Shown here piece by piece: positions 19,154 to 48,266 of a DNA stretch of 64,000 nucleotides. How positions within the stretch are numbered: the first letter of the stretch is position 1; each line of letters starts with the position of its first letter. The stretch spans positions 62,001-126,000 of the forward strand of contig NZ_AUGX01000008.1 of the NCBI RefSeq assembly GCF_000422885.1. The letters run 5' to 3'. The notes below the pieces were generated by a model. That model searched no databases, was not told where the DNA came from, and saw nothing but the letters and a program-made list of their open reading frames with translations. The position numbers were made by a program, and so were the translations under genes. The DNA comes from Ottowia thiooxydans DSM 14619. GTDB lineage: Bacteria > Pseudomonadota > Gammaproteobacteria > Burkholderiales > Burkholderiaceae_C.

Positions 19154-20416
19154 CTAAGCAGAATGCGCAGTAGCCGTGCCGGATAAGCCGGTAGGTACGC
19201 TAGGGGCGGCAGGTGCAGCGGGTCGACTGGCAAGGCGGCGCAGCAAGCCGATCGGTCCGCGTTGATGCCACGGCTGTCCGTGGCGGCGAGGCTGGCTGAG
19301 GGCTTGAGTCAGCCGGTCCAGCACGATCGCCAGGAGCACGATCCCCAGACCACCCACCGTGGCCAAGCCCATATCGAGCCGGCCAATGCCACGCAATACC
19401 ATCAGGCCCAGCCCGCCTACCGCGATCATCGAGGCGATCACCACCATCGACAGACTCAGCATCAAAGACTGGTTGATGCCGGCCATGATGGAGGGCATGG
19501 CCAGAGGAATCTGCACGCGGGCGAGGAGCTGCCAGGGCGACGCGCCATAGGCCTGCGCCGCTTCCACCAGATCAGGCCGCACCTGTCTAATTCCCAGGTT
19601 GGTGAGGCGAACCAGCGGCGCAAGCGCAAAGATGATGGTGACGATCACGCCCGGCACGTTGCCTATGCCAAACAACATGACCACGGGTACCAGGTACACG
19701 AAGGCCGGCGTGGTCTGCATGGCATCCAGCAGGGGGCGCATCAGGCGGTTAGCGCGTTCGGAGCTGGCCAACCATATTCCCAGGGGCAATCCAATCAGCA
19801 CGCAGAAGAAAAGCGCGGTCAGTACAAGGGACAGTGTGACCATGGCCTCAGACCAGATACCCAGAAGGCCGATGACTGTGAGCGAAATCAACGCCCCAAC
19901 GGCCATGCGGGCACCTGCCAACTGCCAGGCCAACAGCGAAAGAAGGCCGATCATCACCAGGGTGGGCGGATACTGCAGCGCGGCCTCAACTCCTCCCAGC
20001 AGCGCATCGACTGGTTGGCGCAACGCCTGGAAAGCCGGTCGGAAGTGGTCAACGAACCAGTGCAAGCCTTGGTTGATCCAGTCTTGCACAGGCAGTGCGC
20101 CATCGAGCCAATCGGCTATGGAAGCTGTGGTGTCTGCTCCTTGCTGAGCGGCGGCGTGGCTTGCAGCGGTCAGGCTGTCGCCCCCAAACCCGCTCATCTG
20201 CCCTGTCAGGTCCTGCGTGACCGCTTGTGGGCCGTTTAACCACTCGGGAGAAGCGTTGGCAGGAGCGGCTTGATAGGGATCTTGGAATGCGTCGGGCGAG
20301 GCACTCATTTCGGGTGGGCTGGCGCTGGCCTGAGGGCCTTGCAACCAGTGAGGGCCCGCTTCAGCGGGTGCCGCCTGATAAGGATCCACAAAGGTGGTGT
20401 TGTCAGATGTGTTCAT
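19154..20416 (-). CDS. proW: glycine betaine/proline ABC transporter permease
   Basis: A 420-residue inner-membrane permease. The body closely follows Pro[40 protein letters not shown], the [27 protein letters not shown] region in two parts, and the EAA loop with [26 protein letters not shown] (seen as consecutive blocks). The N-terminus is long (about 100 residues before the first membrane helix) and contains two copies of a 20-residue unit, DPYQAAPA...WLxGPQA, at 11-30 and 46-65. Such an extension is known in enteric ProW but this duplication is distinctive. It sits 16 bases downstream of proV. Confidence 0.93.
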
Positions 20417-20432
20417 ACGGTGCTTTCTGTGC

Positions 20433-21698
20433 TCAGGCAGCCGCAGCTGAAGCCCCAGCTGACGGTGCGGTTGTGGCTTGCGGCAGTGGGTTGCCTTCTG
20501 TGTCGGTATTTGGATCCAGGAAGGTCAGCAACCGGTTCTTGCTGATGGTGCCGACGAAACTGCCGTCGGCACCCACTACGGGCAGTGGTGCTGGCTGAGA
20601 CACCATGTGGCCGTACAAATCCACAATGGGTGTGTCGGCGGCAATGGGTTGCACCGCGTCGACGAAGGCGTTCTTCAGACCCAGGGGGCCTTCGTGTTCT
20701 TGCAGCGCGGTGCGCAGTGAATCGGCGGATACCGCGCCGAGGTAGCGGTGCTTGGTGTCTACGACGTAAGCCCACTCGCGGTCATGATCCTGCAGGCGCT
20801 TCAGGGCGGGCCGGCAACCGCGTGTGGGGCTCTCTGAAATCTCTACTTGCGTCTTGCGGGCAATATCTCCGGCCTTGAATACGGCGGCGGCATCCACGCC
20901 GCGCACGAACTGGCGCACGTAGTCGTTGGCCGGGCGGCGCAGGATGTCTTCCGGGGTGCCCACTTGCACCACCTGTCCGTCCTTCATGATGGCGATGTGA
21001 TCGCCAATGCGCATGGCCTCGTCCAGATCGTGCGAGATGAAGACGATGGTGCGGCGCTTGTCTTGCTGAAGCCGAAGTAACTCGCCTTGCATCTCGAAGC
21101 GGATGATGGGATCGAGCGCAGAGAAGGCTTCGTCCATCAGCAAGATGGATGGGTCAGCCGCCAGCGCCCGAGCCAAACCCACGCGCTGTTGCATGCCGCC
21201 GGATAACTCGTCTGGGTAGCTGCCTGCCCACACCGCCAGTCCCACCTGATCCAGTGCCGCACGGGCGGCGGTCTCTCGCTCTGTACGCGGCACGCCCGCC
21301 AGCTCCAAGCCGAAGGCAGTGTTCTCCAATACGGTGAGATGCGGCAGCAGCGCGAACGACTGAAACACCATGCTGATGTGCCGACGGCGGAAATCGCGCA
21401 GCTGCTTGTCGGTGTACTGTGCGATGTCTTCCCCATCCACCACGATACGGCCGGCGGTAGGCTCAATCAGGCGGTTGAACATGCGAACCAGGGTCGATTT
21501 CCCGGAGCCGGACAAACCCATGATGACGAAAATTTCACCTGCCTCTATGGTGAAGCTGGCGTCGAACACGCCTATCGATTGACCGGTCTGCTGAACGATC
21601 TCCTGTTTGCTCAATCCCTGGCTTGCCAATGTCAAGGCGCGCTCAGGCGTATCGCCAAAGACCTTGAACAGGTGCTCGATCTGGATTTGCTTGGCCAC
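20433..21698 (-). CDS. proV: glycine betaine/proline ABC transporter ATP-binding protein
   Basis: 421 residues. The ATPase domain has Walker [10 protein letters not shown], the Q-loop [10 protein letters not shown], signature [10 protein letters not shown], Walker [14 protein letters not shown] and the switch FISHDLDEA. Two C-terminal CBS domains follow, which in this family sense ionic strength, and then a short Ala-rich tail. I place the start at GTG 21696-21698 because GGAGGAAA lies just upstream and [16 protein letters not shown] aligns with the family; the longer frame begins 25 residues earlier without homology. It heads proVWX, so its 5' region should be osmotically regulated. Confidence 0.93.
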
Positions 21699-22176
21699 GA
21701 TGATTTCCTCCGGTGTTAGGACAACCGAGGAGGCTGGAGCTGCGAGCCGAAACGACGCCAACGACGCCGACAACGACAGGCGAGCGCAAAGCCGAGCCTG
21801 GTTGTGGGTTGTGGAGAGTTCGCTGGCCTGTGCCCTCGAGACGAGGGAGCCAGTGCTGTGGGAAGTGGTGCACCGCCCGTGGCACAGCGGTCATGGGCGG
21901 CCTGAAGACCGCAAGTGCAGACCACTGCGAACAAACTTGGCGAACCGAAATGGTGTCGCCAAGTATCGAAAAGAAAGCATTATATCAAAATTAATATGAA
22001 GACTTTGAAAAATGCCTTTCACGGGAATGAAGGGCGGACTAATGCTCTTTAGGAAGTCCTACGTTTGTGATCGCTTTCCGTCCCTTCACAGCGGTGCACG
22101 TGTGAGTGGTTTGCATTTCCCCATGATTTCTGCCATTCATTAATCGCATACCTCATCTCGCAAGCGGAAGGGCAGG
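21699..22176. promoter_or_regulatory. divergent intergenic region, proV / DUF35 operon
   Basis: About 480 bases without a supported gene. The proV-proximal half is GC-rich. From about 21965 the sequence turns A/T-rich (AAAGCATTATATCAAAATTAATATG), a likely promoter zone. A clear inverted repeat lies at 21935-21964. Both the osmoprotectant operon and the divergent catabolic operon must be controlled from here. Confidence 0.45.
21935..21964. promoter_or_regulatory. inverted repeat upstream of proV
   Basis: The 9-base arms ACTTGGCGA and TCGCCAAGT are perfect and separated by 12 bases. They sit about 240 bases from the proV start and about 210 from the DUF35 start, next to the A/T-rich stretch. 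This could be an operator for either side, or a leader hairpin. Confidence 0.35.
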
Positions 22177-22635
22177 ATGCCTCGTGTGGACAAGACACTT
22201 GAGCGTGAAAAATCAACGCGCCATTTCCAGGCGGCCACCATGTCTCTCTCCTCCCCTGTGTCCGAGTCGCCCCTGGCGATTTACCACCGCCATTTGCGAG
22301 CCGGACAACTCGCCTACCAGTTCAGCCCATCGGCGGGCCGAGCGGTCTTTTTCCCGAGGCTTGTCTGCCCCTATAGCGGCAGCAGCGAATTGGAATGGCG
22401 AGTGAGCGAAGGCCGGGGAACGGTGCATGCCACCACGGTCGTGTACCCCCGCGAAGGCCATCCGTACAACGTGGCCCTGATCGATCTTGACGAGGGGTTT
22501 CGGATGATGTCGCGGGTAGAGGGCTTGGCGCCACTGGAGGTGCGCATAGGCCAGCGCGTGCAGGTGCGCGTGGTGGAGCAAGCCGGCGAAGAAGCGCCGC
22601 TGCCCGTGTTTGACCTGGCAGGAGATGCGTCATGA
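22177..22635 (+). CDS. DUF35 OB-fold protein with degenerate zinc ribbon
   Basis: 152 residues from the ATG at 22177; an internal ATG at 22240 (131 residues, MSLSSPVSES) is an equally possible start. The DUF35/OB-fold pattern is visible in FFPRLVCPYSGSSELEW, GRGTVHATTVVYP and RIGQRVQVRVV. DUF35 proteins normally bind zinc through two CxxC pairs and act as obligate partners of thiolase-like enzymes. Here the first pair is replaced (FSPSAG) and the second has only one Cys, the sole cysteine in the protein, so no zinc ribbon is expected. Its stop overlaps the next start (ATGA), consistent with complex formation with the thiolase-like product. Confidence 0.85.
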   Translation: MPRVDKTLEREKSTRHFQAATMSLSSPVSESPLAIYHRHLRAGQLAYQFSPSAGRAVFFPRLVCPYSGSSELEWRVSEGRGTVHATTVVYPREGHPYNVALIDLDEGFRMMSRVEGLAPLEVRIGQRVQVRVVEQAGEEAPLPVFDLAGDAS

Positions 22636-23777
22636 AGCGCGGCAGCTGTGCCATCGTCGGGGTGGCCGAATCCGATCTGGGCGAAGTAGCCCAGGGAATG
22701 TCCCCGCTGGACCTGATGGCCCAGGGGATTCATCGAGCATTGGATGACTGTGGGTTGAATCTGCGCGATGTCGACGGGCTGTTCGGCGCTGCGACCCAAA
22801 GCCGGATGGTGACCCTGGCTTTGCGCGAATACCTGGGCATCGATCCGCGCCATGGTGATTCGACCTATCTGGGCGGCTCGTCATTCATGACGCACGTGGC
22901 TCATGCTCAAGCGGCCATTGAGGCGGGGCTTTGTGAGGTGGCGGTGGTGACCTATGGCAGTACGCAGCGCACGGAAGGCCGCACCGCAACCCGGGGGCGT
23001 GACATCAATCCCTATGAAACGCCATTTCGCCCCTTTCTGCCGTCCACTGCTTATGCGCTGGCGGCATCCCGCCACATGCATGAATTCGGCACCACCCGAG
23101 AGCAGCTTGCGGAGATCGCGGTGGCAGCGCGCAAGTGGGCTCAGCTCAACCCTGCGGCGTGGGAGAAGAAGGATCTGACGATCGAGCAGGTGCTGAGTTC
23201 GCGCATGGTCAGCTACCCGCTGACCGTACGGGACTGCTGCCTGGTGACCGACGGCGGGGGCGCTCTGGTGATGACTTCGGCCGAGCGTGCGCGTGATCTG
23301 CGCAAGCAACCGGCTTATGTGCTGGGGTGCGGCGAATCGGCGAGCCACACATCCATCTCCAACATGGCAGACCTTACTCGTACGGCAGCGCGGGATTCTG
23401 GCGCGCGCGCATACGCCATGGCCGGGCTGGGGCCGAAAGATATCGACGTGCGAGAGGTCTATGACGCCTTCACGCTGACCACCTTGCTGTTTCTGGAGGA
23501 TCTGGGCTTTTGTCCTAAAGGCGAGGGCGGGGCGTTTGTCTCGGACGGCAAGCTTCGTCCGGGTGGCGCGCTTCCTACCAATACCAATGGGGGCGGGCTC
23601 TCTTACTGTCACCCTGGCATGTACGGCTTGTTCCTGCTGATAGAGGCGGTGCGGCAGGTGCGAGGCGAATGTGGCCAGCGTCAGGTGGCAGATTGCAATG
23701 TGGCTCTGGCCCATGGCAATGGCGGCGTCCTGTCGAGCCAGAGCACGGTGATCCTCGGAAACGCGAGCACTGTTTAA
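22632..23777 (+). CDS. thiolase-like protein of the SCP-x/Ltp family lacking the nucleophilic Cys
   Basis: A 381-residue thiolase-fold protein. The position of the usual nucleophile reads YLGGSSFMTHV (79-89), with Ser instead of Cys. The later family blocks are intact: VREVYDAFTLTTLL (Tyr277), the NTNGGGLSYCHPGMYG region (His327, Tyr331) and ALAHGNGG near the end. Loss of the Cys while keeping the Tyr and His blocks is the pattern of the Ltp2-type aldolases, which cleave a CoA ester by retro-aldol reaction together with a DUF35 partner. Such a partner is encoded immediately upstream with ATGA overlap. Thiolase activity is therefore doubtful; aldolase activity is an inference. Confidence 0.85.
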   Translation: MKRGSCAIVGVAESDLGEVAQGMSPLDLMAQGIHRALDDCGLNLRDVDGLFGAATQSRMVTLALREYLGIDPRHGDSTYLGGSSFMTHVAHAQAAIEAGLCEVAVVTYGSTQRTEGRTATRGRDINPYETPFRPFLPSTAYALAASRHMHEFGTTREQLAEIAVAARKWAQLNPAAWEKKDLTIEQVLSSRMVSYPLTVRDCCLVTDGGGALVMTSAERARDLRKQPAYVLGCGESASHTSISNMADLTRTAARDSGARAYAMAGLGPKDIDVREVYDAFTLTTLLFLEDLGFCPKGEGGAFVSDGKLRPGGALPTNTNGGGLSYCHPGMYGLFLLIEAVRQVRGECGQRQVADCNVALAHGNGGVLSSQSTVILGNASTV

Positions 23778-23839
23778 GCGCGAAGTGCGCGCTTGGCCAG
23801 GGTTTATTCATTGAGAGCATCTGAGAGATACGAATCGAC

Positions 23840-24988
23840 GTGACTTACCTCGACGCACAAGACGAGACACAGATCCTCCTGCGGGATTCGGCTCAGGACT
23901 TCCTGAGTCAGGAACATCACCTGGAGCGGTTGCAGGCGATTTATCAAGGAAAGACGGTTCTCGACCGCGCGTTGTGGACCGGCATGGCTGAGCAGGGCTG
24001 GCTGGCGCTGCGCCTGCCTGAAGCCATGGGCGGCAGTTCCCTGGAGCCTGTGCACGCCGCCATCGTTGCCGAGCAGTTCGGCCGCCATGCGGTGCCGGAG
24101 CCGCTGCTGGCCTGCGCTGTCATGCCTGCGGTGATGGCATCAAGATTTCCCGGCTTCCTCGGCTGGCAGCTGGTAACGCAGGGATTGATTGACGGATCTC
24201 ATGTGGCCACACTGGCTTGGCAGGAAGATGCCCGTAGCCTGGACCCGGTGCCAGCCACCACGATGGTTGAACGCCAAACCAACGGGACCTACCGCCTGCG
24301 TGGCCGAAAGCTTGGCGTAGCGTGTGGCTCATTCGCAGACAGCCTCCTGGTCGCGGCACTACTGGAGGGTGAGGTAACCCTGTGGCTCGTTGCAAGAGGC
24401 ATGGACGGTGTCAGTCTGGATGAATCACTCGCCAGCGATGGTGCTAGCGTTGCGGTGGTCTCTTTTGAAGATGTGGAGTTGACCGCCGAAGCTTTGTTGG
24501 CAAAAGGGCCAACGGTCATCGAAGCCTTATCAGCTGCTATCGAAGAAGCTCAGCTTCTGGCCGCCTGGCAACTAGTAGGCCTGGCCTCCAGTGCGCTGGA
24601 GATCACGCTCGAATACCAACGCACGAGGGTGCAGTTCGGCCACCGCATTGGCAGCTTCCAATCAATGCAGCATTTGAGTGTGGACGTCAGGCTGCAACAG
24701 GCTTTGGCTCGCGCCGCTTGCCAGAGTGCGCTGCAACGCCACGCGGAAGCTGCGGGGAGCGCGCAGGCGCAGGCTGCGATTGCAGCGGCAAAAGCCCGCG
24801 CCTCGGATGCAGCCTTGCTGGCTGGCCGCTTTGGTGTACAGGCGCATGGCGCCATAGGGTTTGCGGCGGAAGCGGCTATTGGTTGTTATTTGAAAGCGGC
24901 ATTGCGGTGGGCGGCGTTCCTTGGCAATGGTAGCCACCACCGCCGGCAATATGCTCTGCAGGCCGGGCTGCACGGAGCAAGCCTATGA
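23840..24988 (+). CDS. acyl-CoA dehydrogenase subunit (FAD-arginine type half)
   Basis: 382 residues from a GTG start (23840). The C-terminal half carries the FAD-contacting RVQFGHRIGSFQSMQHLSVD (about 265-284) and HGAIGFAAEAAIGCYLK. The middle domain lacks the normal SEPxAGSD motif (QEDARSLDP instead). That is the signature of one subunit of a heteromeric alpha2-beta2 acyl-CoA dehydrogenase, in which two related chains share one FAD site. The next gene, overlapping by four bases, has the complementary set. Together they would introduce an alpha,beta double bond into an acyl-CoA. GC-rich, no anomalies. Confidence 0.88.
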   Translation: MTYLDAQDETQILLRDSAQDFLSQEHHLERLQAIYQGKTVLDRALWTGMAEQGWLALRLPEAMGGSSLEPVHAAIVAEQFGRHAVPEPLLACAVMPAVMASRFPGFLGWQLVTQGLIDGSHVATLAWQEDARSLDPVPATTMVERQTNGTYRLRGRKLGVACGSFADSLLVAALLEGEVTLWLVARGMDGVSLDESLASDGASVAVVSFEDVELTAEALLAKGPTVIEALSAAIEEAQLLAAWQLVGLASSALEITLEYQRTRVQFGHRIGSFQSMQHLSVDVRLQQALARAACQSALQRHAEAAGSAQAQAAIAAAKARASDAALLAGRFGVQAHGAIGFAAEAAIGCYLKAALRWAAFLGNGSHHRRQYALQAGLHGASL

Positions 24989-26142
24989 CGCGCATTGATC
25001 GCAACCAGCTCAATGACGATGAGTTTCGGCTTCAGCTTCGCGCCTGGATAGAGGTCAACTACCTGTCACCCCTGCGCGACCCCATGCGCCGCCTGACTGG
25101 CGATGAGGCCCGGCAGTGGCTGAAGGCGCAACACAGGGACGGCTGGCGGGCGCCTGCGCTGCCTGCAGAGCATGGCGGCATGGGTTTGTCGCTGCGAAAG
25201 CAACTCATCTACCAGCAAGAGCTTGAGCGTTTTCGTGTGGCACGGCCTATGGATATGGGGTTACGCTTGCTGGCACCCGTGTTGCTGCGCTACGGCACAA
25301 CCGAGCAAAAAGCCATCCATCTGCCACGCATTTTGTCAGCCCAGGACGTATGGTGCCAAGGCTATTCGGAACCCAATGCCGGCTCTGACCTGGCCAATTT
25401 GCGCACCGCGGCGCAAGACCGGGGCGATCACTTCGTTGTCAATGGCCAGAAAACCTGGACCACGATGGCCAGTGATTCCAACATGATCTTCATGCTGGTG
25501 CGCACCTGCGTGGAGGAAAAAAAGCAGCAAGGCATTACTTTCCTGCTGGTGGATATGGCGACGCCAGGGATTCGCGTCCGGCCCATTCGCACTTTGGCAG
25601 GCGAAGAACATTTCTGCGAAGTTTTCTTTGACGATGTGGCTGTGCCGCGTGCCAACCTGGTGGGGCAGGTGGGTGATGGCTGGGCGGTGGGCAAAGCGCT
25701 ACTTGGCTTCGAGCGGTTCAGCCACGGCTCGCCGGAGCTTTTGCGTCACGCGCTGTTGGTGCTTCAACGCACCGGGGCGGCGCTGGGCTTGCGTGACGAC
25801 GAGCGCTACCGGGACACGCTGGAGCGCCATGCCTGTGACGTGTCGGATGCCTCAGCCTTGTACGAGCAAGTCTGCGAGACTGCTCTTGCCGGTGGTGACG
25901 CTGATGACGATTTCTCGATGCTCAAGCTCTTTAACGCTGAGGCCACTCAGCGTATCGCCGAGGCCGTACAGGAGCTGGCGGGGCAACATGGCGGTCTGAT
26001 CGGCGCGGCGCCGCACCTTGGTCTGCCAGACGATCTCGAATGGCTCTACATGATTACCCGTCCGCTGACCATCTTTGGAGGCACGGCCCAGGTCCAGCGC
26101 AACCTGCTTGCTGCGCGGGCGCTCAAGCTGCCTAAAACCTGA
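24985..26142 (+). CDS. acyl-CoA dehydrogenase subunit (substrate/FAD-loop type half)
   Basis: 385 residues. The middle domain has GYSEPNAGSDLANLRT (about 126-141) and NGQKTWTTMA, and the C-terminus ends IFGGTAQVQRNLLAARAL. The RxxFGxxI FAD-arginine motif of the ordinary homotetrameric enzyme is missing (GLRDDERYRDTLERH occupies its place). At the position of the MCAD-type catalytic Glu (YEGT) it has Gly (FGGT). These gaps are filled by the upstream subunit, so the pair probably works as a heterotetramer like the steroid side-chain dehydrogenases ChsE1/ChsE2. Start ATG overlaps the upstream stop (ATGA). Confidence 0.88.
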   Translation: MTRIDRNQLNDDEFRLQLRAWIEVNYLSPLRDPMRRLTGDEARQWLKAQHRDGWRAPALPAEHGGMGLSLRKQLIYQQELERFRVARPMDMGLRLLAPVLLRYGTTEQKAIHLPRILSAQDVWCQGYSEPNAGSDLANLRTAAQDRGDHFVVNGQKTWTTMASDSNMIFMLVRTCVEEKKQQGITFLLVDMATPGIRVRPIRTLAGEEHFCEVFFDDVAVPRANLVGQVGDGWAVGKALLGFERFSHGSPELLRHALLVLQRTGAALGLRDDERYRDTLERHACDVSDASALYEQVCETALAGGDADDDFSMLKLFNAEATQRIAEAVQELAGQHGGLIGAAPHLGLPDDLEWLYMITRPLTIFGGTAQVQRNLLAARALKLPKT

Positions 26143-26173
26143 AGCCTGCACCAGCGCTTCTTCCAATGCATCC

Positions 26174-28303
26174 ATGACTTCAAATATGTCCAGTTCATCT
26201 TCATCGCCAGCCCGTCAACCTCATGCGTTGGATCCACTGTTCCACCCTCGCTCTGTGGCGGTGGTGGGGGCATCGTCCGATCCCCGGAAAATCGGCGGAC
26301 GGCCTATCGCCTACATGCTGCGCAGCGGCTTCGCTGGCGAGCTGTTTCCTATCAACCCCGCTCAGACGGAGGTGCAAGGTGTGAAAGCCTACCCTTCGCT
26401 TCGCGCGATTGGCAAGCCGGTCGATCTCGTCATCGTGGCAGTCGGTGGGGCTCATGTGTCCGCGGTGGTGGAGGATGCGATTGAACAGCGGGCGAGCACT
26501 ATTGTGGTGTTCAGTTCGGGGTTCGCGGAGATGGGAGATGAAGGCCGCCAGTTGCAAGAGAGCATCGCGGCCCGGTGCGCCCAGGCCGGTGTGCACTTGC
26601 TGGGGCCCAACTGCATTGGCGTATTCAATTCGCACCAAGCCATGTACGCCACCTTCATCACTGCGCTGGAGCACGAACAGTTCGAACCCGGGCACGTGGG
26701 CATCGTCAGTCAGAGTGGCGCCATAGGTTCATATCTGTATGGCCTGGCTGGGGACCGGGGAGTGCGCGTCAGCCATTTCGTCGCCACCGGCAATGAGGCT
26801 GGTCTGGATGTGGCCGACTGCATAGACTGGATGGCCAGTGACCCGCAGACCCACGCCGTAATGGTTTACTTGGAGGGCTGTCGGGATGGTGAGCGTCTGT
26901 ACCGTGCGCTTGAGCAAGCACGGTTGCGCAGAAAGCCTGTGATTTTGATGAAGGTCGGCCGAACCGAACAGGGTGCGGCTGCTGCCGCCTCACACACAGG
27001 CTCGCTGGCCGGCAGCGACGTGGTCTATGAATCCGTACTGCGGGAAACCAATGCCTGGCGGGCCAATTCGCTCGAAGAGATGGTGGACTTGGCCTACGCC
27101 TGCTCCGTGGGCCCTATGCCGCGCGGCAATCGCCTGGGCGTCGTCACGTCCTCGGGTGGTGTGGGTGTGATCGCCACGGACGAAGCCACCCGGACTGGTC
27201 TTGTGTTGCCTACCTTGCCGCAAGAAACACAGGCGGCGATTTTGGAGATAGTTCCGTTCGCCAGCGGCGTCAATCCAGTGGACACGACGGCGCAGACCAT
27301 GGGGGATCGCACTCTTTTGACGCGCATCCTGGAGCTCGTGTTTGCCCATCCTGAGTTCGACAGTCTGCTGGTTTTTACGGCCAATATGGGGCGCAGCGAG
27401 GCTGAGTTCGGAAAGATCCGCGACGAGCTGTTCACGCTGCGCCGCGCCTATCCGGATCGCTTGGTGGCCCTGAGTATGCGCGCCAAACCTGAAATTGCAG
27501 CCGAGATTCAGCGCGAGGGCATTCTGGTGTTCTCCGATCCGGCGCGGGCCGCTGTCACTATTGCCGCAGTGGCGCAAATCGCGGCGGGTTTTGATCGCCC
27601 GCCCGCCAGGGTTGAAAAATCGGAGGCTCTTCAGATCGTGCCGCTGCCGGCGGGAACGCTAGACGAAGCGGCGGCCCGCGCGCTTCTCGCACAGCACGGA
27701 ATTCCGTTTGCGCCGCTCGAACTCGCCGCGACCGCGCAGGAGGCCGTAGGGGCGGCAGAGGCGATGGGCTATCCGGTTGTCATGAAGGTGGTGTCGCCCG
27801 ATATCGCTCATAAGAGCGACGTAGGAGGCGTGGCACTTGGCCTCGGTGATGCCGAAGCTGTGCGCACCGCCTGGACCGTCATGATGGAATCAGTGGGGCG
27901 AGCGTGCCCAAGTGCCCAAATAGACGGGGTGATGGTTTCTCCCATGATCACCGGAGGTGTTGAGACCGTGATGGGCGTTACGCACGATCCAGTGTTCGGA
28001 CCGATGGTGATGTTTGGTCTAGGCGGTGTCTTTGTGGAAGTTTTCAAGGATGTCACGTTCCGGCGCGCGCCTGTGAGCTTGGCTACGGCACACGAAATGA
28101 TTCACGGTATTCGAGGGCTCCCACTGCTGACGGGCGCGCGAGGCAAGCCCCCAGTCGACCTGGAGACTGTAGCCAGCGCATTGGTGGCCTTATCGAATTT
28201 CGCGGCTGCGCATGCCGGTGAGTTGGACAGTGTGGAGATCAACCCATTCATCGCGCGGCCTTCGGGTGGCTGCGCTGTGGATGCCCTGATTGTGAAGCGC
28301 TGA
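26174..28303 (+). CDS. ADP-forming acyl-CoA synthetase (acetate-CoA ligase family), copy 1
   Basis: About 709 residues in a fused alpha-beta arrangement. A CoA-binding Rossmann domain comes first (FHPRSVAVVGASSDPRKIGG), then a succinyl-CoA-ligase-like domain with the phospho-His motif ASHTGSLAGSD, then an ATP-grasp domain with VVSPDIAHKSDVGGV and GVTHDPVFGPMVMFGLGG. It makes an acyl-CoA from acid, CoA and ATP, releasing ADP and phosphate. The start at 26174 (MTSNMSS) avoids a long overlap with the upstream dehydrogenase; a second ATG 12 bases on is possible. The operon context suggests it activates the acid made by the aldehyde dehydrogenase two genes downstream. Confidence 0.9.
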   Translation: MTSNMSSSSSSPARQPHALDPLFHPRSVAVVGASSDPRKIGGRPIAYMLRSGFAGELFPINPAQTEVQGVKAYPSLRAIGKPVDLVIVAVGGAHVSAVVEDAIEQRASTIVVFSSGFAEMGDEGRQLQESIAARCAQAGVHLLGPNCIGVFNSHQAMYATFITALEHEQFEPGHVGIVSQSGAIGSYLYGLAGDRGVRVSHFVATGNEAGLDVADCIDWMASDPQTHAVMVYLEGCRDGERLYRALEQARLRRKPVILMKVGRTEQGAAAAASHTGSLAGSDVVYESVLRETNAWRANSLEEMVDLAYACSVGPMPRGNRLGVVTSSGGVGVIATDEATRTGLVLPTLPQETQAAILEIVPFASGVNPVDTTAQTMGDRTLLTRILELVFAHPEFDSLLVFTANMGRSEAEFGKIRDELFTLRRAYPDRLVALSMRAKPEIAAEIQREGILVFSDPARAAVTIAAVAQIAAGFDRPPARVEKSEALQIVPLPAGTLDEAAARALLAQHGIPFAPLELAATAQEAVGAAEAMGYPVVMKVVSPDIAHKSDVGGVALGLGDAEAVRTAWTVMMESVGRACPSAQIDGVMVSPMITGGVETVMGVTHDPVFGPMVMFGLGGVFVEVFKDVTFRRAPVSLATAHEMIHGIRGLPLLTGARGKPPVDLETVASALVALSNFAAAHAGELDSVEINPFIARPSGGCAVDALIVKR

Positions 28304-28372
28304 CAGACGCCCGGGCGGGCACCAGATCCATTCGGATACCAAGCCGATCAGACATTCAACTTAGGAGACGTC

Positions 28373-29500
28373 ATGGCACTAATCAACTACCTGAATCGGG
28401 TGCATCTTGCGCCTGGAGCACTTAAGCAACTGCCGAATGAACTTGCGACCTTGAAGATCACGCGTCCAATGGTGGTGACGGACCCCGGCCTGGCGGGCTC
28501 AGAGGTTTTGCAGCGATTATTGGCCCAATGCCCCGCCCATACCGTGGTATTTGCTGATACACCACAAAACCCTACAGAGGACGCTGTAGAGGCCGCGGTG
28601 CGGCAGTATCTTGCAAGCGGCTGCGATGGCTTGGTGGCCTTTGGCGGCGGTTCTCCCATGGACCTGGCCAAAGCGACCGCAGTGTTGGCCACTCATGAGG
28701 GGCCGCTGTCGCAATACACCGTGGTGGAGGGCGGCGAGGCACGTATCTTGCCGACGGCATCCCCCATCATCGCGGTACCCACTACAGCCGGTACTGGCAG
28801 CGAGGTAGGCCGCTCAGCCATGATCAGCATGCGCAGTGGCGGCAAGCGTAGTGTGCGCAGTTTTCATTTGGTGCCGCGCGTGGCCATCTGCGATGCAGAG
28901 CTCACGCTTGGTTTGCCAGCTCGGCTGACCGCGGCCACTGGAATGGACGCCTTGACCCACTGCTTTGAAACTTATCTTTCGCCGGTGGATAACCCGGTTG
29001 CGGAGGCTATCGCGCTACATGGTGCGCAACTGGCATACAGCAACATTGAGGCAGTCACCTTGGGGGATACCACTAATATCGAAGCGCGTCACAACATGAT
29101 GACTGCCGCTTTGATGGGAGGGCTTGCTTTCCAGAAGGGCCTGGGTGCCGTGCATGCACTGGCACACCAATTAGGGGCTCTCAAGGAGCCGCTGTTGCAC
29201 CACGGCACGCTCAACGCGGTACTTCTGCCGGCCGTATTGCGCTACAACCGTGAATACATTGCTTCCCGGTCCCAGGCACTGGCTCGGGCTCTTGGTTTGC
29301 CTGAAGGTCAAGACTTGGCAGAGGCGGTCGAGCAACTCAATGTGCGCCTGGGGCTTCCGCTTCGTTTGAGTGAAATGGGCGTGCCGGCCGATTGCCTTGC
29401 CGCGATGGCTGAGGCCGCGCCGGGCGATCCGTCAACCCGTACCAATCCGAGACCCGTAGATGTCGCAGGTTACCGCAGCATCCTCGAAGATGCGTTTTAA
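28373..29500 (+). CDS. iron-containing (group III) alcohol dehydrogenase
   Basis: A 375-residue Fe-ADH. The NAD-binding loop GGGSPMDLAKA is at about 91-101, and PTTAGTGSEVG at 136-146. Probable metal ligands are Asp192 and His196 (GMDALTHCFE), His261 (GAVHALAH) and His277 (LLHHG). It would oxidise a primary alcohol to an aldehyde or hydroxy acid to oxo acid with NAD. A good ribosome-binding site (TAGGAGAC) precedes the ATG. It is followed 18 bases later by an aldehyde dehydrogenase, so the pair likely turns an alcohol into an acid for the ligase upstream. Confidence 0.9.
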   Translation: MALINYLNRVHLAPGALKQLPNELATLKITRPMVVTDPGLAGSEVLQRLLAQCPAHTVVFADTPQNPTEDAVEAAVRQYLASGCDGLVAFGGGSPMDLAKATAVLATHEGPLSQYTVVEGGEARILPTASPIIAVPTTAGTGSEVGRSAMISMRSGGKRSVRSFHLVPRVAICDAELTLGLPARLTAATGMDALTHCFETYLSPVDNPVAEAIALHGAQLAYSNIEAVTLGDTTNIEARHNMMTAALMGGLAFQKGLGAVHALAHQLGALKEPLLHHGTLNAVLLPAVLRYNREYIASRSQALARALGLPEGQDLAEAVEQLNVRLGLPLRLSEMGVPADCLAAMAEAAPGDPSTRTNPRPVDVAGYRSILEDAF

Positions 29501-29518
29501 AAGAAGAGGACTTTAGCG

Positions 29519-30955
29519 ATGCTTTATCCGCAACTCCGTCAGCTCATCGCCGGTGAGTGGAGAGAAGGCCGTGGCGATGATGTGCGTGCTGTCGTTAACC
29601 CTGCAACAGAGGAGCAACTGGGGGAATTTCGCCACGCCAGCGATGACGACGTGGATCGAGCGGTGGCTGGCGCTGAGCAAGCCTTTGCGGTATGGCGGGC
29701 GCGCTCACCCGAACAGCGACAAATTGATTTGCACCGCGTAGCGGCACTAATTCGAGAGCGCGTAGATCGAATCTCGCACCTTCTGTCTTCTGAAGGCGGA
29801 AAGCCGCTGCACGATGCGAGGCGTGAAGTGCTGCGCTCGGCCACCATCATTGAATGGGATGCGGCCGAAGGGCGGCGGCTCTATGGTCGGGTGATCCCGG
29901 CCGAGCCTGGAATGCACCTCGAAGCGATGCGTGAGCCAGCGGGGGTCGTTGCCGCCTTGATTGCTTGGAACTTTCCAGTGGGGTTCATGGCACGCAAGGT
30001 AGGCGGGGCACTGGCCGCCGGCTGTGCGGTGGTGCTCAAATCCACCGAGGAAACGCCGGGAACTTGTGTGGCCTATTTGGAGTGTTTTGTCGACGCAGGC
30101 TTGCCTCCCGGTTTGGTCAGCCTTCTGATCGGAGATCCAACGCGCATCGCGCCCCGGTTAATTTCGGCCTCCGCCGTGCGGGTAGTCAGCTTTACTGGGT
30201 CCACCGGGGTGGGTAAAACCTTAGGACAACTGTGTGCGGAGCACATCAAGCGGTCAGTTTTGGAGCTGGGTGGTCATGCACCCGTGCTCGTCTGTGAGGA
30301 TGCGGATATTGAGAAGGCAGTAAAGGCCTTGATTGGTGCCAAGTTTCTGAACAACGCCGGGCAAGTTTGTGTTGCTCCAACCCGCATGTTTGTGGCTCGT
30401 CCACGCTATGCAGAATTTTGCGAAGCACTCGCGCAAGCTGCGCGCGGTTTGCGTGTAGGCCCCTCGAATGAGGATGGCGTGCAAATGGGGCCATTGATCC
30501 ACGAGCGTCGACGCACGGCTATTGAGTCCCTCGTTCAAGACGCGCTGTCGTGTGGTGCCAAATTGTTGGCGGGTGGCACAAGGATAGGAACGCGCGGCTT
30601 CTTCTACGCGCCAACTGTGCTCGGGGACGTTCCCCCGCAAGCGCGAGCGATGAACGAGGAGCCGTTTGGTCCATTGGCATTGATAGCGCCGTTTGACACT
30701 CTGGAGGAAGGGCTGCAGCGCGCCAATTCGTTGGGCTACGGACTGGCCGCCTATGCCTTTACCGAATCGGCGCGGTCTGCGCGGCTTATCGCGGAGCGTA
30801 TAGAGGCTGGCATGCTTTCTATCAATCATTGCACTGCGGCGCCGCCTGGAGCTCCCTTTGGCGGTGTCAAGGATAGTGGGCATGGCCGTGAAGGCGGGCC
30901 TGAAGGCTTGTTGGAGTTCACAAGCACGAAGTTTGTTTCCCACAAAATTTACTGA
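29519..30955 (+). CDS. NAD(P)-dependent aldehyde dehydrogenase, last gene of operon
   Basis: 478 residues of the ALDH superfamily. AWNFPVGFMARKVGGALAAG (149-168), the FTGSTGVG cofactor loop, general-base Glu249 (LELGGHAP) and nucleophile Cys284 (NNAGQVCVAPTR) are all present, as is NEEPFGPLA. The set resembles succinate-semialdehyde or medium-chain aldehyde dehydrogenases. It oxidises an aldehyde to the acid and most likely works right after the Fe-ADH. A strong intrinsic terminator lies about 40 bases after the stop, marking the end of the operon that begins at 22177. Confidence 0.92.
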   Translation: MLYPQLRQLIAGEWREGRGDDVRAVVNPATEEQLGEFRHASDDDVDRAVAGAEQAFAVWRARSPEQRQIDLHRVAALIRERVDRISHLLSSEGGKPLHDARREVLRSATIIEWDAAEGRRLYGRVIPAEPGMHLEAMREPAGVVAALIAWNFPVGFMARKVGGALAAGCAVVLKSTEETPGTCVAYLECFVDAGLPPGLVSLLIGDPTRIAPRLISASAVRVVSFTGSTGVGKTLGQLCAEHIKRSVLELGGHAPVLVCEDADIEKAVKALIGAKFLNNAGQVCVAPTRMFVARPRYAEFCEALAQAARGLRVGPSNEDGVQMGPLIHERRRTAIESLVQDALSCGAKLLAGGTRIGTRGFFYAPTVLGDVPPQARAMNEEPFGPLALIAPFDTLEEGLQRANSLGYGLAAYAFTESARSARLIAERIEAGMLSINHCTAAPPGAPFGGVKDSGHGREGGPEGLLEFTSTKFVSHKIY

Positions 30956-30991
30956 GACACGGCCGCTCATCACCGATTCTCGTAGTTTTCG

Positions 30992-31030
30992 AAATGCCCT
31001 CGCGAGCTCTTGCTCCGAGGGCATTTTTTT
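30992..31030 (+). terminator. strong intrinsic terminator
   Basis: A perfect 11-bp stem (AAATGCCCTCG with CGAGGGCATTT) closes a 13-base loop and runs into seven T residues. It ends the 22177-30955 operon on the plus strand and isolates the Bug-led operon that follows. Confidence 0.9.
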
Positions 31031-31211
31031 GGCGTGCAGTTAGTGAATGGAGCCGGGGCAGCGATGCGTGAAGAAATGACAAAAGGTAATACCAGGGGGC
31101 TCATTTGGAAGATGTCGCTCCGAGGGCGATCCCTATCATTCATTGCACGCCCACAGGTGAGCACCACGCTCATCAGCCGAATGGGGCATCTTAAAAAATC
31201 AGGAGACAACA
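31031..31211. promoter_or_regulatory. leader of the second catabolic operon
   Basis: About 180 bases between the terminator and the Bug gene at 31212, whose ATG has AGGAGA upstream. The promoter of the 31212-40312 operon must lie here. I cannot pick out a convincing -35/-10 pair or operator. Confidence 0.4.
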
Positions 31212-32198
31212 ATGCAAATGGGACACCGAGCCGGCTGGCTTATCAAGACGCTCGCGATCGCGGGATCGATCTTTGCTCAGTCCGCGATGGCGCAATCGAA
31301 CTATCCATCGCGTCCAATCCAGGTCATCGTTCCCTACGCCGCGGGCGGTACCACCGACCTGGCGGGTCGCATTGTGGCCAAGGCACTGGGTGAACAGTTG
31401 AATCAAACCGTGGTGGTCGAAAACAAGGTGGGTGCAGCAGGTTCGGTGGGGGTAGCACAGGCCGTGCGTTCGGCGCCGGACGGCTACACCATGGCGGTGT
31501 CAGGAGTGTCTTCGACGATGCTGCACCAGCTGCTGGGACGCAAGCTTCCTTATGACCCGCAGACCGACCTTAACTCTGTCGCCTATATGGGCTCCTCTGG
31601 CATGGTCGTTATCACGCGCAAGGATTCGAACTTCAAGAGCCTGCGCCAACTGATTGAGCATGCGAAGACCAATCCTGGCGTAGTGACCTTTGGTTCTGCG
31701 GGTAACGCGTCGCCAGGACACCTGGCCACGGAATACATCGCCAGCATGGCGAAAATCAAGATGACCCACGTGCCTTACGCGGGAGACTCCGCTTTGATGG
31801 GCGATCTGATGTCAGGCCGCATCGACATCGCGACGGTCGGTATCGCCAGCGTGTTCTCGCACATGAATGCGGGCTCCATCTCGGCGTTGGGGTTGACCTC
31901 CCGCGAGCGTCTTGCATCCTTTCCCAACGTGCCAACAGTGGCTGAGGCAGGCCTGAATGGCTACGAGGCAGACATCTGGAATCTGTTAGTGCTGCCCAAA
32001 GGTACGCCTGCGCAGATCGACGCCAAACTCAACGCTACGGTTAATCAGTTGATGGCCGATAAAGGCGTGCGTGAGGCGCTGCTCAACATTGGCTTCACAG
32101 CGCGTCCCATGAGCCTTGCCGAGATCCGGGATTTCATCAATGTCGAGCGGGTGAAGTGGGGCGCGATCATCCGGGACGCCAAGATCAAGATCGACTAA
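31212..32198 (+). CDS. Bug/TctC-family periplasmic solute-binding protein, copy 1
   Basis: 328 residues. There is a signal peptide with likely cleavage after SAMA (residue 27), then the family opening YPSRPIQVIVPYAAGGTTD and VVVENKVGAAGSVG. Bug proteins have two alpha/beta lobes and bind carboxylates (dicarboxylates, aromatic acids, amino acids) without charged side-chain contacts. Some feed tripartite tricarboxylate (TTT) transporters, while many are orphans used as sensors. No TctA/TctB membrane genes occur in the window. As the first gene of this operon it probably captures the pathway substrate. Confidence 0.92.
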   Translation: MQMGHRAGWLIKTLAIAGSIFAQSAMAQSNYPSRPIQVIVPYAAGGTTDLAGRIVAKALGEQLNQTVVVENKVGAAGSVGVAQAVRSAPDGYTMAVSGVSSTMLHQLLGRKLPYDPQTDLNSVAYMGSSGMVVITRKDSNFKSLRQLIEHAKTNPGVVTFGSAGNASPGHLATEYIASMAKIKMTHVPYAGDSALMGDLMSGRIDIATVGIASVFSHMNAGSISALGLTSRERLASFPNVPTVAEAGLNGYEADIWNLLVLPKGTPAQIDAKLNATVNQLMADKGVREALLNIGFTARPMSLAEIRDFINVERVKWGAIIRDAKIKID

Positions 32199-32250
32199 AT
32201 CGCGTTCGGCGGGCCGCTTGAGGCCCACCGCTCCACACACGAGAAACATC

Positions 32251-33648
32251 ATGTCCAAGATCATTCCAGTTCGCAATCCACGTACGGGTCAGTATGACTA
32301 CGAGCTCAAGACGACCGACGTCCATTCTTTACCCGCAATTGCCGCCGAGTTAAGGAGCCACCACGCCGACTGGGTGGCCTTAGGGCTGGAGGGCCGCCTC
32401 AAGGTGCTTAACGCCTGGCGTGTAGAGGTCGAGAAGGCGCGTGGCGCCATCCTCGATGCGGTCGTGGCGGACACAGGCCGGCTCATCGAGTCAGAAAAGG
32501 AGATGCAACGCCTGCCGGCCAGCATCGATCGGTTGGCGATCATGGCTCGCGAGGTGTTTGCCGAGAGGACGCTTTCCTTGCGTTCAATGAAGGGCGTGGA
32601 GGTGCACGGTGGTCTCAGCCCTTTCCCTTTGGTAGGCGTGATCAGCCCGTGGAACTTCCCATTGTCGAGTTCTCTGCTGGACACCATTCCAGCGCTGGTC
32701 GCAGGTTGCACCGCGATCGTCAAACCTAGTGAGATTACGCCGCGCTTTGTGGAGCCTCTGCTCGAAACTCTCCGCAAGGTGCCAGAGATGTACGCGGTGC
32801 TTCGCTACGTGAACGGCGACAAGGAAATCGGCGAAGCTCTGATCGGCCAGGTTGATGCGATCTGTTTCACTGGCAGCGCAGCCACGGGCCAGAAAGTGGC
32901 TGAAGCCGCTGGCCGGGCCTTCATACCGGCCTTCCTGGAGTTGGGTGGCAAGGATCCAGTCATTGTCACGGCCAGCGCCGACATCGACAAGGCGGCGGCA
33001 GGCATTTTGAGCGGCTCAGTTGCGAACGCTGGTCAAGTGTGTGTATCGCTCGAACGGATCTATGTAGACCGAAAAATCGCGGAATCGTTTGTTGAGAAGC
33101 TGGTTGAAAAATCGCAACAACTCAAGCTGGCCTATCCCACGTTGAAGGATGGAACCATAGGCCCCATCATTCTCGAACGACAGGCGCATGCCATTAATCA
33201 GCATTTGAATGACGCAGTGGCCAAGGGCGCACGCATTCGGTGCGGTGGTTTGGTCGAACAACGGGATGGCGGCTGGTGGGCGTCGCCTACTGTCGTCACC
33301 GATGTAGATCACGACATGATGCTCATGACGGATGAGACGTTCGGGCCGATCATGCCTGTCATGGTCTACGACACCATCGAAGACGCTGTGCAATTGGCCA
33401 ACGACAGTACCTATGGGTTGAGCGGCGCCGTGTTCTCAGGATCTTCTGAGGAGGGGCTGGGTATAGCCAGGCGGATGGAGGTGGGTGCGGTGAGCATCAA
33501 CAGCAGCGGTCTAGGGACTGCGGCCATTGGCGAGGGTGATTTTCACGAAAAGAACGCCTTCAAGCAATCCGGACTGGCTGGCTCGCGGCTGGGCTATGAC
33601 TCGATCACGCGATTCATGCGTAAGAAGGCTTACCTCATTCAGAACTGA
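32251..33648 (+). CDS. aldehyde dehydrogenase (coniferyl-aldehyde-dehydrogenase-like)
   Basis: 465 residues from the ATG at 32251 (MSKIIPVRNPRTGQ). ISPWNFPLSSSLLD (131-144), CFTGSAATGQKVAEAAG, Glu230 (FLELGGKDP) and Cys264 (ANAGQVCVSLER) are intact, with TDETFGPIMPV nearer the end. By pattern it falls near plant/bacterial coniferyl aldehyde and related acyl aldehyde dehydrogenases rather than the ALDH at 29519. It converts an aldehyde to the acid in the pathway served by the ligase at 36477. The substrate is unknown. Confidence 0.9.
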   Translation: MSKIIPVRNPRTGQYDYELKTTDVHSLPAIAAELRSHHADWVALGLEGRLKVLNAWRVEVEKARGAILDAVVADTGRLIESEKEMQRLPASIDRLAIMAREVFAERTLSLRSMKGVEVHGGLSPFPLVGVISPWNFPLSSSLLDTIPALVAGCTAIVKPSEITPRFVEPLLETLRKVPEMYAVLRYVNGDKEIGEALIGQVDAICFTGSAATGQKVAEAAGRAFIPAFLELGGKDPVIVTASADIDKAAAGILSGSVANAGQVCVSLERIYVDRKIAESFVEKLVEKSQQLKLAYPTLKDGTIGPIILERQAHAINQHLNDAVAKGARIRCGGLVEQRDGGWWASPTVVTDVDHDMMLMTDETFGPIMPVMVYDTIEDAVQLANDSTYGLSGAVFSGSSEEGLGIARRMEVGAVSINSSGLGTAAIGEGDFHEKNAFKQSGLAGSRLGYDSITRFMRKKAYLIQN

Positions 33649-38678: not shown

Positions 38679-39455
38679 ATGGCAGAGATTGAATACCAGC
38701 GCGATGGCGCCATTGCACGCATCGTTATCAACCGTCCCGAGCGCAAGAATGCACTGGCCAATGACATGCGCACGCGACTGACCGAAGCCTTCCATGAGGC
38801 CAATGCAGACGATGAGGTGCGCGCGGTCATCCTGACTGGCACAGGAGACACTTTCTGCGCCGGAGCGGATGTCTCCCGGATGGCACCACGCGATGTCAAG
38901 GGCGCACGAAACAACCTTCAGCAGAACGCGCACGCGCTGATTCGAGCGCTCTACCATATTGAAAAACCAGTGATTTCAGCCGTGCGCGGCTCCACGGTGG
39001 GCATTGGCCTAAGCATGATGCTGGCCTGCGATATGGCAGTGGTTTCGGAGACTGCGCGCTTTTCCTGCATTTTTGCTCGCCGAGGCTTGGCGCCAGATTC
39101 GGGCGCGGTGTTCTTTCTCTCGCGCCTGATCGGCTTGGCTCGGGCTCGCGAGATGGTGTTCACCACGGATTTCTTCTCCGCGCAGGAGGCCCTTGCCCTG
39201 GGGGTGGTCAACCGCGTCGTAGCCGACGCGGATCTGGAAGCCGAAGCCCAGGCGCTCGCCGAACGGATGGCGGCTCAGCCCACCTACGCGTTAGCCATGG
39301 CCAAGAAGATGTTCCAGTTCTCGCTGTCACCTCCGTTTGACCATTTCCTGGAATACGAAGCCTTGATGCAACCCCAGATTCACCAGACTCTGGACTATCG
39401 AGAAGGGATTGCTTCGTTCAAGGAAAAGCGCCCGCCACGTTTCGTCGGCCGCTGA
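38679..39455 (+). CDS. enoyl-CoA hydratase/isomerase family protein
   Basis: A 258-residue crotonase. The oxyanion-hole segments are FCAGADVSRM (about 63-72) and VRGSTVGIGLSM. At the active-site loop it reads GLAPDSGAVFFLSRLIG, with Asp at the place of the second catalytic Glu and no Glu at the first. This single-acid arrangement fits an isomerase (PaaG/ECI-like) better than a classical hydratase. It follows the ADP-forming ligase and precedes a secreted hydrolase in the same operon. Confidence 0.88.
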   Translation: MAEIEYQRDGAIARIVINRPERKNALANDMRTRLTEAFHEANADDEVRAVILTGTGDTFCAGADVSRMAPRDVKGARNNLQQNAHALIRALYHIEKPVISAVRGSTVGIGLSMMLACDMAVVSETARFSCIFARRGLAPDSGAVFFLSRLIGLARAREMVFTTDFFSAQEALALGVVNRVVADADLEAEAQALAERMAAQPTYALAMAKKMFQFSLSPPFDHFLEYEALMQPQIHQTLDYREGIASFKEKRPPRFVGR

Positions 39456-48108: not shown

Positions 48109-48266
48109 GGCAGTTGCCTCCTATATATGCAGTCAGTGTCCTGTTGGACGGGATAGCCTTGGATTCTGCGGGTATGCACGGGGGGCAAGCCTTGCTTTTT
48201 CAACCGTCTGACATAATAAAAACTCATGTTAGGTTTCGTCCGGCATCCACCCTTAACGAATTGCTC
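48109..48266. promoter_or_regulatory. divergent promoter region, SDR-MaoC pair / LysR gene
   Basis: 158 bases between divergent starts, with an A/T-rich core (GACATAATAAAAACTCATG, about 48208-48226) suitable for promoters. LysR autoregulation from this region is expected by arrangement; I cannot define the T-N11-A box with confidence. Confidence 0.35.

Follow-up and report, generated by a model that had tools for sequence, protein, structure and literature searches.

Does the retro-aldol cleavage of CoA-bound side chains by a DUF35-dependent, thiolase-fold enzyme, familiar from steroid catabolism, also occur outside the steroid setting? The question is raised by an operon at positions 22177-30955 of a 64,000-nucleotide stretch of the Ottowia thiooxydans DSM 14619 genome (hereafter the window; C4:62001-126000 of the draft assembly, which totals 7.05 Mb over 78 contigs). 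A first-pass annotation had proposed seven plus-strand genes here, encoding a DUF35 protein, a thiolase-like protein (THL), two acyl-CoA dehydrogenase (ACAD) subunits, an ADP-forming ligase, an iron-dependent alcohol dehydrogenase (Fe-ADH), and an aldehyde dehydrogenase (ALDH1), and all seven are present in that order and at those coordinates. With slightly more confidence than doubt, we read the DUF35-THL pair as a new form of retro-aldol cleavage that depends on DUF35 but is not devoted to steroids. The features of the operon are as follows.

22240-22635, plus strand: DUF35 (OB-fold) partner protein (Pfam PF01796, OB_ChsH2_C, 60.1 bits)
22632-23777, plus strand: THL, putative retro-aldolase without the thiolase Cys (NCBIfam PRK06158, 620 bits, cut-off 421; PDB 4u4e, 9myr (CtSal), and 6ok1 (TcLtp2))
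23840-24988, plus strand: ACAD small, PimD-like subunit (best PDB match 6wy8_A)
24985-26142, plus strand: ACAD large, PimC-like subunit (best PDB match 4x28_A)
26174-28303, plus strand: ADP-forming acyl-CoA ligase of 709 amino acids (Pfam ATP-grasp_5, Succ_CoA_lig, and CoA_binding_2)
28308-31069, plus strand: segment without a counterpart in the nearest relative, G004 (blastn); probable insertion holding Fe-ADH, ALDH1, and the terminator
28373-29500, plus strand: Fe-ADH, 4-hydroxybutyrate-dehydrogenase-like (NCBIfam NF058672, 484.1 bits, not reaching the cut-off of 500)
29519-30955, plus strand: ALDH1, semialdehyde-dehydrogenase-like (TIGR01780, succinate-semialdehyde dehydrogenase (SSADH), 409 bits, cut-off 646; PDB 9zh8, 5x5t, and 5vbf)
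30991-31031, plus strand: intrinsic terminator (hairpin 30991-31027 and a T run; fold -29 kcal/mol, z -7.1)

Which of these genes belong together can be judged from their relatives. When an alignment of four THL sequences was used to scan a genome collection, 434 encoding stretches were found, and the best 80 loci were kept with flanks of at most 10 kb; many of these loci are short or incomplete, and absences among them are therefore lower-grade evidence. Six carry orthologous operons, namely L069 and L070 in Comamonadaceae metagenome-assembled genomes (L069 being the nearest named relative by THL), L071 in Comamonas sp. NTP6, L072 in Acidovorax sp. CCYZU-2555, L073 in Candidimonas nitroreducens, and L074 in Lampropedia puyangensis. 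The order DUF35, THL, small ACAD, large ACAD, and ligase is identical in all six, and these five genes are the conserved unit of a real, conserved catabolic operon. Fe-ADH and ALDH1 were found in none of the six orthologs and at none of the 80 related loci. When window positions 28201-31260 were compared by blastn with L031 of G004, homology stopped 4 bases past the ligase stop codon and resumed at 31070, 43 bases beyond the end of the hairpin. Because the two genes are absent from the orthologs and the segment is missing from G004, Fe-ADH, ALDH1, and the terminator would most simply be an insertion in the source lineage. The best match to Fe-ADH across the 79 other genomes searched is 54% identical, the best among 85 plasmid records is 55.7% identical, and no ALDH1 homologue adjoins the Fe-ADH relatives in 24 loci with about 1.5 kb of flank each. 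The single seven-gene operon of the first-pass annotation is thus reduced to a five-gene core, and the joining of this core to alcohol and aldehyde oxidation is not a conserved combination. Fe-ADH and ALDH1 were also considered as the key to the substrate and were dropped as a defining trait.

The DUF35 gene may start at 22240, as in G004, or at 22177, where an upstream ATG keeps the reading frame open; it overlaps the THL gene, and the two ACAD genes overlap as well. The terminator is as strong as first described, and none of 200 shuffles gave an equally good hairpin, while a simple terminator scan alone found 13 sites against a shuffle mean of 12.3, i.e., no excess. No sigma-70 site was found on the operon strand in a scan of positions 20000-33000.

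Does THL act as a thiolase or as an aldolase? An alignment of 61 rows was built from 70 open reading frame matches, which were deduplicated to 58 with the window's own copy then set aside; the protein of the window and three sequences from the PDB were added. Its loci came from whole-genome searches that used no residue pattern. The nucleophile column holds Cys in all 17 rows of the His-Asp type and Gly in all 44 rows of the Tyr-Asp type. THL carries Gly at the thiolase Cys position and Tyr277-Asp-Ala-Phe, in which Tyr replaces the thiolase His, and it therefore lacks both the Cys nucleophile and the HD(A/C)F motif of thiolases of the SCP2/BbsB type. BbsB (7pxp) and 7yvy retain Cys and HDAF. 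Aligned with the known aldolases, Tyr277 falls on the base, Ala279 on the acid position of Sal, and His327 on the acid position of Ltp2. None of the 18 other rows at 50.5-96.3% identity (17 genome-search rows and 4u4e) departs from Tyr277 or His327, and His327 is retained in 35 of the 44 Tyr-type rows overall. A tree of 71 rows, in which ten rows from the 80-locus scan were added to the 61, separates the 17 Cys rows from all Tyr rows, including Sal and Ltp2, with a branch support of 100. Within the Tyr side, THL lies in its own 37-row branch (support 99), and Sal and Ltp2 lie in separate branches with supports of 98 and 96, respectively. The description of THL as Cys-less is borne out by the Gly. 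THL has the features of a Sal/Ltp2-type aldolase in lacking the nucleophile Cys, in having a Tyr base in a YDxF/Y motif, and in being encoded alongside DUF35, but it has neither a known acid residue nor a place in either branch. THL is likely to represent a non-steroid retro-aldolase subfamily with an active site of its own.

The source genome holds 21 THL relatives, 14 of the Cys-less Tyr type and seven with Cys. Several of the Cys-less relatives adjoin DUF35, ACAD, MaoC, or TctC genes, and one cluster (L042 4498-8839, G000:C58) contains two distinct Cys-less THL genes, each beside its own DUF35 gene.

The partnership with DUF35 is nearly constant across the subfamily. The nearest solved chains to the DUF35 protein are 6htj_A, 9myr_B (the DUF35 of CtShy), and 6ok1_B (the DUF35 of ChsH2), and a CxxC zinc knuckle occurs in none of 80 aligned DUF35 stretches, of which 79 come from relatives and one from the window. 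In 78 of the 80 loci, DUF35 lies upstream of THL at a distance of at most 200 bases; of the two exceptions, L148 has a spacing of 201 bases, and L109 begins at a contig end, with no DUF35 found. The same constancy bears on the suggestion that THL does not cleave the substrate of the operon and serves instead in acyl transfer or condensation or as a non-catalytic partner. No characterised member of the subfamily was found in the literature searched, and 4u4e is labelled only 'Thiolase', which would suit such a role; the retention of Tyr277 and His327 in every row above 50% identity and the nearly invariable DUF35 neighbour speak against it, and we regard it as quite improbable. Other neighbours are more variable. 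Both ACAD types are found near THL at 14 of the 80 loci and a MaoC hydratase of the multifunctional enzyme type 2 (MFE-2) at 18. A short-chain dehydrogenase/reductase (SDR) of the MFE-2 kind is found at eight loci at an identity of at least 50% and at 13 at an identity of at least 35%. Only two loci have a thiolase with Cys near THL; in L075, L077, and L078, which encode a second THL-like protein, that protein is Cys-less as well.

One arrangement is especially informative. A set of the form MaoC-MaoC-(TctC)-CaiB-DUF35-THL is present at seven of the 80 loci (L089, L090, L117, L121, L125, L136, and L147) and on plasmid pA82 (L206). Its MaoC and CaiB genes were checked by Pfam in L089 and L125 and its CaiB gene in L121, and they were otherwise named by 75-100% identity to the annotated genes of pA82. 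No ACAD or hydroxyacyl dehydrogenase lies inside the set at any of the seven loci or on pA82, and ACAD-like or general SDR matches of 25.6-28.5% lie outside it in four of the seven (L090, L117, L121, and L147). The set apparently serves to transfer CoA, to hydrate, and to cleave, with no dehydrogenase involved. Should it be complete, THL would have to act on the product of the hydratase, which makes this set the strongest argument from gene context for an aldolase. The set recurs in records of Achromobacter, Bordetella, Pigmentiphaga, Herbaspirillum, and Paraburkholderia; L089 comes from a Herbaspirillum metagenome-assembled genome. Elsewhere, genes of the SMP-30/gluconolactonase type lie near DUF35-THL in L099 (11149-13058), L102 (11133-12101), L115 (2694-3581), and L073 (15492-16580), hinting at lactone substrates in some relatives.

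If THL acts on a hydratase product, which hydratase supplies it in O. thiooxydans? The first-pass annotation stated that none lies inside the operon, which is literally true, but the window holds two candidates elsewhere, one of them a MaoC protein, the kind of partner for which it had proposed a search. The relevant features outside the operon are as follows.

32218-33648, plus strand: ALDH2, a second aldehyde dehydrogenase, member of the following gene group
38679-39455, plus strand: enoyl-CoA hydratase (ECH), alternative hydratase
46304-47161, minus strand: MaoC hydratase of the MFE-2 hydratase-2 type; probably the hydratase of the pathway
47179-48108, minus strand: SDR of the (3R)-hydroxyacyl-CoA dehydrogenase (MFE-2) type (best solved relative PDB 2et6, 352 bits)
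48093-49184, plus strand: LysR regulator, divergent from the SDR-MaoC pair

The gene group downstream of the operon has the order TctC-ALDH-SDR-TctC-NMO-ADP-forming ligase-ECH-hydrolase, and ALDH2 also lies 3' of the core operon in G004 and Lampropedia and occurs at two of the 80 loci. Positions 26174-57203 of the window as a whole form a dense catabolic island with five TctC-type solute-binding proteins, three ADP-forming CoA ligases, three alpha/beta hydrolases, and two LysR regulators.

The MaoC protein at 46304-47161 is the probable pathway hydratase, judging from its relatives: a MaoC and SDR pair neighbours the orthologous operon in four of six loci (L071, L072, L073, and L074). Both MaoC and SDR seem, by eye, to retain their catalytic residues, including the Ser, Tyr, and Lys of the SDR, against motifs that we take to be the catalytic ones, and the pair thus has the hydratase-2 and SDR components of the MFE-2 type. 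Of the two remaining ortholog genomes, that of L069 encodes a MaoC of 94% identity elsewhere and that of L070 only one of 47%, and an ECH relative of 74% identity is found near the orthologous operon in L070. The L071 set comprises TctC, DUF35, THL, two ACADs, ligase, MaoC, SDR, and LysR, with one flavin-oxidoreductase reading frame at its edge and no racemase seen within it. As it is flanked by type II secretion genes on one side and by a TonB gene on the other, it looks like a pathway that is almost complete in itself.

The SDR in these neighbourhoods raises the main rival explanation, a Cys-less retro-Claisen reaction. Here the ligase, ACAD, MaoC, and SDR would produce a 3-ketoacyl-CoA, which DUF35-THL would cleave without a covalent Cys intermediate by direct attack of CoA or water. 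Peroxisomal MFE-2 and SCPx form a pathway for branched-chain beta-oxidation, and the locus would be its bacterial counterpart for branched acids. It shares with that pathway relatives of (R)-hydratase-2 and (3R)-hydroxyacyl-CoA dehydrogenase, but these are separate genes here, and the SCP2 thiolases have a Cys where THL has none. Besides the MaoC and SDR pair at four of the six orthologs and the apparent self-containment of the L071 set, this explanation is favoured by related MaoC and SDR pairs that flank DUF35-THL in other clusters (L034, L039, and L207) and by matches to the L074 fusion of ECH and hydroxyacyl-CoA dehydrogenase near THL at eight of the 80 loci, L074 itself included. The nucleophile Cys is nevertheless replaced by Gly in all 44 Tyr-type rows, Cys and His are retained in 7yvy and in BbsB, which is a true thiolase of the same fold and has a DUF35 partner, and the MaoC-MaoC-CaiB sets lack such a dehydrogenase. 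We know of no precedent for Cys-free thiolysis in a thiolase fold and consider this explanation unlikely.

Several observations nevertheless weigh against a retro-aldolase. The strongest is the SDR near the operon, which fits a 3-ketoacyl route better and is unexplained in the version of the locus with ligase and ACADs if THL is an aldolase there. The acid residues of the known enzymes, Cys304 of Sal and Tyr344 of Ltp2, are both absent from THL. Tyr277, Asp278, Ala279, Phe280, and His327 are present in all 81 sequences (80 loci and the window), but this count is partly circular rather than independent because the YCHPGMY stretch that holds His327 served as the search pattern, and it is not used as evidence. 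The tree comes from a quick search, includes CtSal as a fragment, and carries a long-branch warning. The AlphaFold model of THL is poor at the key residues, with a mean predicted local distance difference test score of 67.8 and values below 50 over positions 276-330. Set against these points, retro-aldol cleavage by DUF35-THL outside steroids is the better-supported reading, given the Cys-less side of the tree, Tyr in place of His, and the MaoC-MaoC-CaiB sets. Aldol cleavage outside the steroid setting, as first proposed, gains further from the lack of a KshA_C match described below, while the SDR near four of six orthologs keeps the proposal from standing in full.

What acid, then, does the operon act on? 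The two ACAD subunits are encoded by adjacent genes and match opposite chains of the same solved heteromeric enzymes, in the manner of ChsE1-ChsE2, which is in keeping with the complementary pair first described. The large subunit matches 4x28_A, 6wy9_A, and 6wy8_B in that order, and the small subunit matches 6wy8_A best, with 4x28_D eighth; we take 4x28, 6wy8, and 6wy9 to be steroid enzymes. The nearest NCBIfam models of the small and large subunits are PimD and PimC, respectively, both far below cut-off. The ACADs thus appear to lean equally to PimCD and to 4x28/6wy8. For Fe-ADH and ALDH1, there are the likenesses below cut-off, and the top PDB matches of ALDH1 include 5x5t, an alpha-ketoglutaric semialdehyde dehydrogenase. 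These hint at omega-hydroxy or semialdehyde acids, but only where the inserted module is concerned.

From these likenesses a dicarboxylate pathway could be drawn, in which Fe-ADH and ALDH1 would convert an omega-hydroxy acid to a dicarboxylate, followed by activation, dehydrogenation, hydration, and cleavage by DUF35-THL. With adipate, the products would be acetyl-CoA and succinate semialdehyde, the latter being oxidised to succinate by ALDH1 or ALDH2. The nearest families of Fe-ADH (4-hydroxybutyrate dehydrogenase), ALDH1 (SSADH), and the ACADs (PimC/PimD) all point this way, but their NCBIfam scores are all under the curated cut-offs, the core is conserved without Fe-ADH and ALDH1, and the ACADs match other heteromeric ACADs as well. 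We hold this version to be highly improbable. In a dicarboxylate study by random-barcode transposon sequencing (RB-TnSeq), PimCD/ChsE-like ACADs are described with fitness effects, and the word DUF35 is absent from the text of that source as available (PMC12543098). The branched or isoprenoid alcohol suggested as substrate in the first-pass annotation finds no direct support in the present data, and nothing in them points specifically to isoprenoids.

Could the operon be a displaced or incomplete part of a steroid or bile-acid side-chain pathway? Its enzymes are of the same kinds as those of chsE1/E2, DUF35, and ltp2. The steroid markers searched were KshA_C and TIGR03213. KshA_C has no match in the source genome. 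In ten other genomes bearing relatives, a sample without the L069 genome, it scores 207 bits in one (G061), matches weakly in six, with 30 bits or less, and has no match in three; five of the six weak matches exceed the low cut-off of 23.3. The strong match lies at G061:C108:7804-8409, in the genome of L070, and this one carrier of the orthologous operon may degrade steroids too. The loose extradiol dioxygenase model TIGR03213 has eight matches in the source genome, none over the cut-off of 366. The best, at 218 bits, is a BphC-type protein on contig C61, whose neighbours, named by eye, are TctC, a hydrolase, and GntR, none of them steroid-specific in appearance. With KshA as the marker, the source genome shows no steroid-ring genes. 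As THL also lies outside the Sal and Ltp2 branches, a steroid or bile-acid role, already disfavoured, has only a very slight probability.

How far does the locus differ from known systems? The closest is the Ltp2-ChsH2 aldolase of the steroid C3 side chain (in actinobacteria, and as ORF43/ORF40 in C. testosteroni), with which it shares a Cys-less thiolase fold, the Tyr base of a YDxF motif, a DUF35 partner, grouping with a two-subunit ACAD, and a MaoC hydratase earlier in the pathway. TcLtp2 (6OK1) is described as an aldolase with base Tyr294 and acid Tyr344, the latter corresponding to Gln352 of CtSal (PMC12329534). In THL, Tyr344 is replaced by His327 and YDHF by YDAF, and the protein falls outside the Ltp2 branch; at the locus, DUF35 is a separate gene without CxxC, the ligase is in the operon, and MaoC is elsewhere in the window, and KshA has no match in the source genome. 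ChsH1-ChsH2-Ltp2 is described as comprising two MaoC parts, DUF35, and the aldolase (PMC12502768), which the MaoC-MaoC-CaiB-DUF35-THL set resembles in its parts. The CtSal-Shy aldolase of the bile-acid C5 side chain likewise shares the Tyr base, Gly at the thiolase Cys position, and a DUF35 partner. CtSal (9MYR) is described as an aldolase with base Tyr302 and acid Cys304, and CtShy as having a C3H1 zinc finger (PMC12329534); the aldehyde product of CtSal-Shy is reported to be oxidised by an aldehyde dehydrogenase (PMC11321319). THL has Ala279 for Cys304 and His327 for Gln352 and lies outside the Sal branch, and Shy is a fusion of MaoC and DUF35 with its zinc finger, unlike the DUF35 protein here.

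Two further systems bear on the novelty of the reaction. In ibuprofen degradation, a retro-aldolase step outside steroids has been described, and the thiolase that yields propionyl-CoA is named there as ipfDE (PMC9195938). IpfD/IpfE are likened to DUF35-THL by description rather than by sequence, as a thiolase-type pair tied to a retro-aldol step that releases propionyl-CoA, but they act after a ring dioxygenase, and the operon contains none. Since that step is published, a non-steroid setting does not in itself make the reaction new. BbsAB, the benzoylsuccinyl-CoA thiolase (7pxp), is named among the DUF35 complexes (PMC12329534) and has the same fold as THL; BbsB is a true thiolase with a DUF35 partner and keeps Cys and HDAF where THL has Gly and YDAF. 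Among the papers listed by full-text searches of a library with few subscription titles, none on the operon or the subfamily was found.

Taken from the observed gene content, conservation, residue pattern, and tree placement, the reactions and the DUF35-THL complex would be as follows. The ligase would convert a carboxylic acid to its CoA ester, the two-subunit ACAD would oxidise this to a 2-enoyl-CoA, and MaoC (46304-47161) would hydrate it to a 3-hydroxyacyl-CoA. The DUF35-THL pair would then cleave the C2-C3 bond by a retro-aldol reaction, with Tyr277 as the putative base and His327 probably as the acid, to give acetyl- or propionyl-CoA along with an aldehyde or a ketone in free form. If the product is an aldehyde, it might pass to ALDH2 or, in the source strain, to ALDH1. 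Fe-ADH and ALDH1, as a probable later insertion, may oxidise some alcohol, perhaps an omega-hydroxy acid, and would feed or drain the pathway without defining it. More tentatively, and at rather less than even confidence, THL of the PRK06158 type and its zinc-less DUF35 may constitute a third lineage of thiolase-fold retro-aldolases, in which Tyr277 and His327 act on non-steroid acids and replace the thiolase step in a general shortening of acyl-CoA chains in Proteobacteria, with a CaiB/MaoC version and a ligase/ACAD/MaoC version.

The relatives of THL are widespread: besides the 434 encoding stretches of the genome collection, they occur in 161 plasmid records with E values of 1e-60 or better. 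Among the matches listed, the plasmid relatives are mostly labelled 'thiolase' or 'acetyl-CoA acetyltransferase', and the close relatives aligned here are without the thiolase Cys. The MaoC-MaoC-CaiB-DUF35-THL set offers a small system for deciding between aldolase and thiolase. If the relatives of THL are retro-aldolases, pathways drawn from such labels would have another end point, at which aldehydes or ketones are released in free form, and CoA-linked aldolases for the making of C-C bonds beyond steroids would come within reach.

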